From an uncultured Veillonellaceae bacterium (GTDB lineage: Bacteria > Bacillota > Negativicutes > Veillonellales > Negativicoccaceae), in NCBI GenBank assembly GCA_945876385.1, contig CAMCNU010000001.1, positions 310,001 through 374,000 on the forward strand: 64,000 bases of DNA, read 5' to 3'. How positions within the stretch are numbered: position 1 is the stretch's first letter; every line of letters starts with the position of its first letter. Both the position numbers and the translations under genes were made by a program. Of the stretch, positions 22,514 through 24,131 are shown piece by piece. The notes under the pieces are model-generated. The model saw only the letters and a program-made list of their open reading frames with translations, was not told where the DNA came from and searched no databases.

Positions 22514-23027
22514 TTTCACCCGCCTCCTTCGCTTTCGTCTGCTCTTCCCGCTGCTTGATTTCATCACGCAGACGAGCTGCCCGTTCATACTCTTCCGCCG
22601 CAACGGCCTGCATTAATTCCTGCCGCAGCCGATATAATTCCCGCGACGTGCGAAACGCCTCTTCCGCTTGCGCCGGTGCTTTACCGACATGACGGGCCGC
22701 TCCTTGCCAGCGCTTGATAATCGGTGCCAGCTTTGCGGAAAATTGTCGGTAGCACGACGGGCATCCCAGCTTGCCGCTGCGAGTAAAATCCCGATAGCTC
22801 ATACCGCACCCGTCACAGCGAACGCCTTCATCCGCAGGATAAGCGCCGGGCGCCATTAAGCTTTTAAAAAACTCATTGTCCCACAAATTAAACTGTTGCC
22901 ACATCATACTCCCGTATTCGTTTTTACCGGCACAAGTCTCACATAAATGATGTTCCTGCTTGTTTCCGTTGTGAATTGTGGTGACATGCACCGTAGCATC
23001 GTGTTTTCTGCACTTTTCACATTTCAT
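22503..23027 (-). CDS. mcsA: McsA, activator of McsB
   Basis: A 174-residue zinc-binding protein with four CxxC pairs (CEKC, CETC, CDGC, CPSC) and a C-terminal UVR motif (AEEYERAARLRDEIKQREE). It binds and activates McsB and modulates CtsR. The start is ATG 23027 with GAGGTGAAGG upstream, overlapping the ctsR end by 11 bp. Four gene starts in this operon overlap or abut the previous stop, so translational coupling is likely. Confidence 0.94.
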   Translation of the reverse strand: MKCEKCRKHDATVHVTTIHNGNKQEHHLCETCAGKNEYGSMMWQQFNLWDNEFFKSLMAPGAYPADEGVRCDGCGMSYRDFTRSGKLGCPSCYRQFSAKLAPIIKRWQGAARHVGKAPAQAEEAFRTSRELYRLRQELMQAVAAEEYERAARLRDEIKQREEQTKAKEAGENGH

Positions 23028-23478
23028 ATCCTTCACCTCGCAATGCCGCACCGATGCGTTCTTGCAATCGCCGCACCAAGCGCAACCGTGTCTGTTTCTG
23101 CTCCTCCGCCAGGGCTGCCGCAAACACCTCATGCAACAAGCGCGCTTCCCGTTTGCTGATAATCTCATCTTGGAGCAAGGCGTACAATTGCCTGTCAATC
23201 ATACCGATAGAGATATCTTCCTCTTCCCATTCCGCAGCCTGCGGCAACTGCCGCGTTTCCAAAATCGTAATGCGGATAAACCCGCCCAGACCGCGCTTGG
23301 ACTCGACGGCAAACCCCCGCTCTGTGGAAAAACGCGTATTCAATACATAACTGATTTGTGACGGCGCACACTGGATTGCATCCGCGATCTCCTTACGTTG
23401 CAATACCACTTGTTGCGCCTGCTCTTCCATCAGCTTTCGCATAATAAATCGCTCAATGCGATCCGCCAACAATCCCAT
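23017..23478 (-). CDS. ctsR: Heat-shock repressor CtsR
   Basis: A 153-residue class III heat-shock repressor. The winged helix-turn-helix is at LQRKEIADAIQCAPSQISYVL with the wing KRGLGGFIRI, and the C-terminal four-helix dimer domain contains ISKREARLLHEVF. ATG 23478 (MGLLADRIERFI) is preferred: GGGGTG lies 8 nt upstream and CtsR family members begin here. In-frame codons further upstream lie inside the promoter region. Probably autoregulated. Confidence 0.94.
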   Translation of the reverse strand: MGLLADRIERFIMRKLMEEQAQQVVLQRKEIADAIQCAPSQISYVLNTRFSTERGFAVESKRGLGGFIRITILETRQLPQAAEWEEEDISIGMIDRQLYALLQDEIISKREARLLHEVFAAALAEEQKQTRLRLVRRLQERIGAALRGEGYEM

Positions 23479-23513
23479 CTGATTCACCCCTTCACTCGCC
23501 ATGGTGATGTAAA

Positions 23514-23571
23514 TTGCTCTTTTGACTTTTTGCTCTATTGTCATTATACTTGACCTTTTGACTAATTGCAA
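23514..23571 (-). repeat. Phased TTG-hexamer repeats over the ctsR promoter
   Basis: On the plus strand, TTG-starting hexamers begin at 23514, 23522, 23530, 23538 and again at 23550, 23558, 23566: TTGCTC, TTGACT, TTGCTC, TTGTCA / TTGACC, TTGACT, TTGCAA. Spacing is 8 bp within each group. The known CtsR operator is a direct repeat of RGTCAAA with 10-bp phase. The half-sites AGTCAA and GGTCAA match, but the phase does not. Confidence 0.55.
23543..23571 (-). promoter_or_regulatory. sigma-A promoter of ctsR operon
   Basis: TTGCAA, 17 bp, TATAAT. The 17-bp spacer holds two CtsR-like half-sites (AGTCAA and GGTCAA on the minus strand), so repressor binding here would block RNA polymerase. Confidence 0.8.
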
Positions 23572-23605: not shown

Positions 23606-23636
23606 AGGTCTACTATAGAGACGAACGGGAGACGTG

Positions 23637-24131
23637 ATGACGATGAAAGAAAACCTGGGCAAACATTTATTAATTGACTGCTACGGCTGCAAAAACAATA
23701 CCATCAGCAGTATGAGCGCTCTCGCCGACATTGCCAATGAAGCCATTGCTATCGCCGATATCGAAGCCTATGACACGCATGTCCATCAAACCGAGCACGA
23801 ACTCACGCTGACGGTCATCGGACGCGGCAGTCACATTTTCATTCACTCCTATCCCGATTTTTCCTATGTCGCGATTGACGTATTTGCATTTAACGCCGAT
23901 TTGAATCCGACAACGGTCATGAAAATCTTGCGCCAGCGTTTCCGCCCGGACAAAATTCGCGCGACCAGCGTTCGTCGCGGCAAAGTGGACACCGACAACG
24001 ACCCGGACATGAAACCGAAAACAAAGTCCAAAACCACTACGTTCCGCCGCATGAAGTCGACCGGTCAGCAACTCAAGCAGACCGGGAGCAAAATGTTACG
24101 CGTCCTGACCGCCCCCCGCAAAAAGAAATAG
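23637..24131 (+). CDS. SpeD-like (AdoMet decarboxylase family) protein, atypical
   Basis: A 164-residue protein aligning with bacterial class 1b S-adenosylmethionine decarboxylase (LGKHLLIDCYGC near the start, then IHSYPDFSYVAIDVF). Ser65 (future pyruvoyl) and His70 (processing) are conserved. The residue before the Ser is Gly64 instead of the usual Glu, and the catalytic Cys position is Phe85. After residue 115 there is a Lys/Arg-rich tail of about 45 residues. It may have a changed substrate; repurposed SpeD homologues acting on ornithine or arginine are known. No speE neighbour is present. One of two plus-strand genes. ATG 23637 is 5 nt after GGGAG; ATG 23643 is an alternative. Confidence 0.75.
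   Translation: MTMKENLGKHLLIDCYGCKNNTISSMSALADIANEAIAIADIEAYDTHVHQTEHELTLTVIGRGSHIFIHSYPDFSYVAIDVFAFNADLNPTTVMKILRQRFRPDKIRATSVRRGKVDTDNDPDMKPKTKSKTTTFRRMKSTGQQLKQTGSKMLRVLTAPRKKK

Follow-up and report, generated by a model that had tools for sequence, protein, structure and literature searches.

A tailed SpeD homologue of Negativicutes with recurrent loss of catalytic residues

The locus and its SpeD-fold product

The stretch of DNA analysed here, a window of 64,000 nucleotides, belongs to a 1.5-Mb Negativicutes genome whose nearest named match, at 54% identity, is Negativicoccus massiliensis. It contains an open reading frame for a short SpeD-like protein, which starts at an ATG codon (a GTG at 23634 or a further ATG at 23643 could serve instead), diverges from ctsR, and is followed by a convergent folC gene (Table 1). 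Between ctsR and the SpeD-like gene lies a GTCAAA-type direct repeat, TTGACYNNTTGACY, with an 8-bp period (23550-23563), for which there is 1 match in the window versus 0.03 expected. Judged from its sequence, this repeat is a possible CtsR operator of non-canonical spacing, the canonical period being 10 bp; a search of the window for canonical 10-bp CtsR operators found none, only the 8-bp repeat. This 8-bp-period repeat between the two genes was also noted at loci L042, L044, L045, and L057. The divergent arrangement of ctsR-clpC and the SpeD-like gene is found in Negativicoccus and Veillonella as well, and Sporomusa-like families have ctsR, methyltransferase, FprA, and nitronate-monooxygenase-like (FabK-like) genes, the SpeD gene, and rubrerythrin. 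Megasphaera and Acidaminococcaceae-like genomes carry recD2/comF beside the SpeD-like gene, and the ctsR arrangement is missing from Acidaminococcaceae-like, Selenomonas-like, and Megasphaera loci. Since the neighbourhood is common within and between many families, the gene has been inherited mostly vertically. No relative was found in viral contigs, and only a single distant match came from each of the plasmid and phage collections, so the gene is apparently not mobile.

Table 1. Features of the locus, in window coordinates
Feature	Position	Strand	Basis or remark
ctsR, transcribed divergently, first gene of the ctsR-mcsA-mcsB-clpC operon	23017..23502	-	Pfam CtsR, 1.1e-28
Overlapping divergent promoter-like sites of ctsR and the SpeD-like gene	23522..23571	.	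Include the GTCAAA-type repeat
ORF of the tailed SpeD-like protein, a likely pseudoenzyme	23637..24131	+	164 aa plus stop; orthologues in 236/250 genomes of the class
SpeD-fold core, residues 3-115	23643..23981	+	Pfam AdoMet_dc and predicted-structure match
Former self-cleavage motif GSHIFIH, residues 64-70	23826..23846	+	Glu62 is Gly64; Ser63 is Ser65; His68 is His70
Phe85 in place of catalytic Cys83	23889..23891	+	All 35 Veillonellales orthologues have Phe here
Negativicutes-specific cationic tail, residues 116-164	23982..24128	+	Conservation, charge, hydrophobic moment, AlphaFold
DMKP with invariant Pro127	24006-24017	+	Family alignment

The Pfam AdoMet_dc model matches residues 10-115 of the window protein (89.9 bits, 1.6e-25), sequence comparison matches it to the Thermotoga maritima structures 1tlu and 1vr7 (E about 5e-10), and its AlphaFold model (pLDDT 86.6) has an rmsd of about 1.4 Å to 1tlu, 1vr7, and 1tmi. 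This confirms a protein of the class 1b SpeD fold, and the SpeD homologue proposed by the first-pass annotation thus held in coordinates and residues. The score against TIGR03330, the NCBI AdoMetDC equivalog, is 72.5 bits, below the cut-off of 75.65 bits, and judged by this score and by its Cys position, the tailed protein is not a strict member of that group.

An alignment with T. maritima SpeD, spanning residues 5-127 of the window protein, places G64/S65/H70/F85 opposite E62/S63/H68/C83. Relative to class 1b AdoMet decarboxylase, the equivalents of Ser63 and His68 are therefore present and the proton donor Cys83 is absent, exactly as had been read from the sequence at first pass. Because Cys83 is replaced by Phe in every Veillonellales orthologue (Table 1), the substitutions are not a matter of chance or sequencing error. 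An active-site Cys elsewhere, which would have undone the earlier reading, was looked for in the alignment: the only cysteines of the window protein are residues 15 and 18, neither near the Cys83 position. Many Veillonellales do have a Cys at the position of T. maritima residue 66, but they have it equally where Ser is replaced by Ala, and in the window protein this position is Phe; a relocated Cys was therefore rejected. The missing Glu before the Ser, also taken as a sign of lost function, proved less telling. Gly64 is real, but Glu marks class 1b and class 2 only; since the window genome's own class 1a SpeD (L002) reads Lys-Ser (DKSHITVH), loss of the Glu alone is weak evidence. Strong evidence comes from the loss of the Cys, together with the loss of the Ser across the family. 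From these residues we infer that the window protein itself is inactive, and slow Gly64-Ser65 cleavage or residual processing is possible because Ser65 and His70 remain. An N-terminal D-x-Y-x-C motif at 23676-23690 (residues 14-18) was noted across all orthologues, and even among dead members its Asp14 and Cys18 are 99% conserved.

The window genome has a second SpeD, which is a full-length class 1a protein with Lys-Ser-His and Cys intact and is encoded on another contig. The spermidine synthase gene speE also lies on a separate contig (G000:C9), in agreement with the initial remark that none is adjacent.

Catalytic residues have been lost recurrently in the family

Using a profile of short homologues, short SpeD-like orthologues were found in 94% of 250 Negativicutes genomes. 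All 60 closest relatives contain SpeD homologues, nearly all of them one short and one long. Among 188 distinct sequences, the pyruvoyl Ser position is occupied by Ser in 51, Gly in 110, Cys in 10, and Ala in 9, while Phe also occurs; the Ser is thus missing in 137 orthologues, and because it is replaced by Gly, Ala, or Phe, formation of a pyruvoyl group is impossible in many of them. The Cys83 position holds Cys in 117 and Phe in 40 sequences, and His68 is gone in 11. The full Glu-Ser-His-Cys (ESHC) set remains in 28 sequences; because L208 from genome G061 is an untailed class 1b SpeD, 27 of these are intact tailed proteins. Other positions of the family alignment are well kept: His66, His70, Tyr77, and Asp81 are at least 80% conserved, and Arg114 and Pro127 are 100% conserved.

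Untailed SpeDs were sampled from other classes of the phylum, and all 20 have the complete ESHC set; the intact state is therefore ancestral. Parsimony on a gene tree built without the trait columns required at least 11 changes for the Ser, at least 8 for the full set, and at least 18 for the Cys, counts that are approximate given 149 columns and many open forks. The case for independent loss goes beyond the tree, since the genome families f12, f26, and f29 each include both intact and broken members. The catalytic residues have thus been lost many separate times. Within one genus of family f26 (g40; L144, L159, L162, L168, L172, and L180), the stages ESHC, KSHC, HCHC, QSHC, QSHY, and QSHF occur side by side. 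Two substrate-binding positions of class 1b structures, F49 and E72, which serve adenine stacking and ribose binding, respectively, are retained in intact members, whereas dead members show degradation at both (in this comparison the rows for E12, Y14, and C16 were left out, being offset by one residue). Despite this decay, the dN/dS ratio in dead clades is about 0.01-0.14 (the pair L114/L161 was left out as misregistered), and dead members are under purifying selection.

The cationic tail and independence from class 1a SpeD

The tail of the window protein comprises 49 residues, 15 of them Lys or Arg and 4 Asp or Glu, so that the basic extension described at first pass is real. The family consensus around it reads RGDFGxxxDMKPxxKxxxxPLRRxxNTGxKxxxxL, and over 38 residues the net charge averages about +10. 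For the best 18-residue stretch, the hydrophobic moment has a mean of 0.54 versus 0.33 for shuffled tails, with p < 0.05 in 70% of tails, and AlphaFold predicts, with moderate confidence (pLDDT about 70-83), a strand at 128-133 and an amphipathic helix at 135-157. The amphipathicity of this modelled helix could instead reflect packing on the protein's own core. Matches outside Negativicutes, mostly proteins of 120-135 aa, stop at about position 117-126 of a model with 152 positions, and the tail was seen in no other class. Mean pairwise identity falls from 0.79 in intact to 0.34-0.42 in dead members for the core and from 0.67 to about 0.41 for the tail, a comparison that is supportive rather than conclusive because group depth differs.

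Class 1a SpeD was found in 166 of the 250 genomes, of which 161 also carry the tailed protein; among the 84 genomes that lack class 1a SpeD, 75 have it. When 80 class-1a-lacking genomes were checked with PF02675, the tailed protein proved to be the sole SpeD homologue in most of them, and SpeE, too, is absent from about 17 of those listed. These distributions indicate the INDEPENDENCE of the tailed family from AdoMet decarboxylation and show its independence from class 1a SpeD. We also considered whether intact catalysis is tied to absence of the class 1a enzyme and discarded the idea, since a class 1a SpeD is present alongside 24 of the 27 intact tailed proteins. A further two occur together with an untailed class 1b SpeD, and the intact tailed protein may therefore already have been a redundant enzyme. 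At the speE loci L279-L289 (G014, G098, G142, G124, G089, G137, G216, and others), speE is clustered with an AAT-fold arginine/lysine decarboxylase-like gene, speB, and a carboxyspermidine-dehydrogenase-like gene, as identified by eye; in these genomes a dead tailed protein is the only SpeD homologue, and G152 has none. In the Veillonella-like genome G028, the SpeE match is 1.5e-59 compared to about 1e-97 in sister genomes, perhaps owing to a truncated speE.

Several other roles can be envisaged. The protein might be a ligand sensor, with a vestigial pocket binding AdoMet or a polyamine and the tail signalling to a regulator, perhaps of the CtsR/Clp stress regulon. The conserved His66, His70, Tyr77, and Asp81 would fit such a pocket, and the divergence from ctsR with overlapping promoter-like sites and GTCAAA repeats would fit the regulon; however, the adenine-stacking F49 and E72 are degraded in dead members, and the ctsR arrangement is missing from the three groups of loci named above, so that we regard a sensor as rather unlikely. 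A dead paralogue that binds and switches on the cell's own intact class 1a SpeD, as proven for the AdoMetDC prozyme of trypanosomes (PMC5201418), would agree with the joint presence of both proteins in the window genome and in nearly all class 1a genomes. This cannot be the sole job of the tailed protein, since it is kept in most genomes without class 1a SpeD, often as their only SpeD homologue and at times where SpeE is lacking too; moreover, its nearest kin are class 1b and not class 1a proteins, and an activator of this kind seems improbable.

Enzymatic explanations fare worse. The first-pass annotation had considered a repurposed pyruvoyl decarboxylase of ornithine or arginine (SpeDC or SpeDA), for which the retained Ser65 and His70 would speak, but such enzymes are expected to have Ser63, His68, and Cys83 (PMC10407285), and the window protein has lost the Cys, as have all Veillonellales orthologues, with the Ser gone from most of the family and F49 and E72 degraded; this suggestion is very improbable. 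We likewise give hardly any credence to an ordinary AdoMet decarboxylase with unusual residues: the homology exists at the level of annotation, but the score falls below the equivalog cut-off, the catalytic Cys, Glu62, F49, and E72 are lost, and an intact class 1a enzyme is encoded elsewhere in the window genome. The repeated decay of the active site could also mark a functionless relic; the low dN/dS values, the retention in 94% of genomes of the class, and the invariant Pro127 and Arg114 contradict this, leaving it barely conceivable.

The homology, predicted fold, recurrent residue losses, class-restricted tail, and purifying selection together point to a SpeD-derived, non-catalytic, and tail-centred pseudoenzyme that is class-wide in Negativicutes, which we consider the likely explanation. 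An ancestor would have combined a pyruvoyl active site with the tail; the active site would then have been lost in most lineages, including that of the window, because the cell had a further AdoMet decarboxylase or could do without the pathway, with tail and fold being retained. The SpeD fold, which forms a dimer in known class 1b enzymes and might do so here, would serve as a scaffold from which tails of a strand and an amphipathic cationic helix dock on an anionic surface or partner (membrane, RNA/ribosome, or protein), docking being the putative selected function. It is reasonably probable that the tail was added to a redundant SpeD, that its function was conserved while catalysis was discarded independently, and that the product is a class-wide, tail-presenting factor, structural or regulatory, with no part in polyamine synthesis. 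The earlier suggestion of a protein that no longer self-processes and whose tail matters is borne out at the family level, by the missing Ser and a tail under purifying selection, but less so for the window protein, which retains Ser65 and His70.

The present-day job of the tailed family is probably non-enzymatic. Its genes carry an AdoMet decarboxylase annotation, and metabolic models of Negativicutes would credit them to spermidine synthesis, yet most members cannot be spermidine-synthesis enzymes. With intact, degenerating, and dead members in one orthologous family, whose non-catalytic tail apparently preceded and outlived catalysis, it offers a natural experiment in how pseudoenzymes evolve.

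Comparison with known SpeD-related systems

No relevant description of SpeD pseudoenzymes in bacteria or Negativicutes was found in the open-licence literature. With class 1b SpeD/SpeH (TIGR03330; T. maritima TM0655, PDB 1tlu/1vr7), the tailed protein shares the fold, the core, and the equivalents of His68, Asp79, and His64, and intact orthologues still carry ESHC; it differs in the Cys83 to Phe and Glu62 to Gly changes, the loss of F49 and E72, the score below the cut-off, and a tail of about 49 residues that class 1b enzymes lack. SpeDC and SpeDA are likewise SpeD-fold proteins that departed from AdoMet decarboxylation, but they retained the pyruvoyl machinery that the tailed family lost, and they spread mainly horizontally, whereas the tailed family is vertical within one class (PMC10407285). 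Another related system is the trypanosomatid prozyme, a dead AdoMetDC paralogue kept by selection alongside an active enzyme and described as confined to trypanosomatids (PMC5201418). The window genome too combines a paralogue that appears dead from its residues with a class 1a SpeD; the prozyme, however, is eukaryotic, has the class 2 fold, and requires its active partner, whereas the tailed protein is retained even where no active SpeD exists and bears a tail specific to one bacterial class. The SpeD-SpeDC fusion of Victivallis vadensis provides a bacterial SpeD domain lacking key active-site residues, namely its dead C-terminal domain (PMC10407285), but this is joined to an active SpeD and occurs in Lentisphaerota only, while the tailed protein is free-standing and class-wide. 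By analogy, the tailed family would resemble other pseudoenzymes that have outlived their catalysis.
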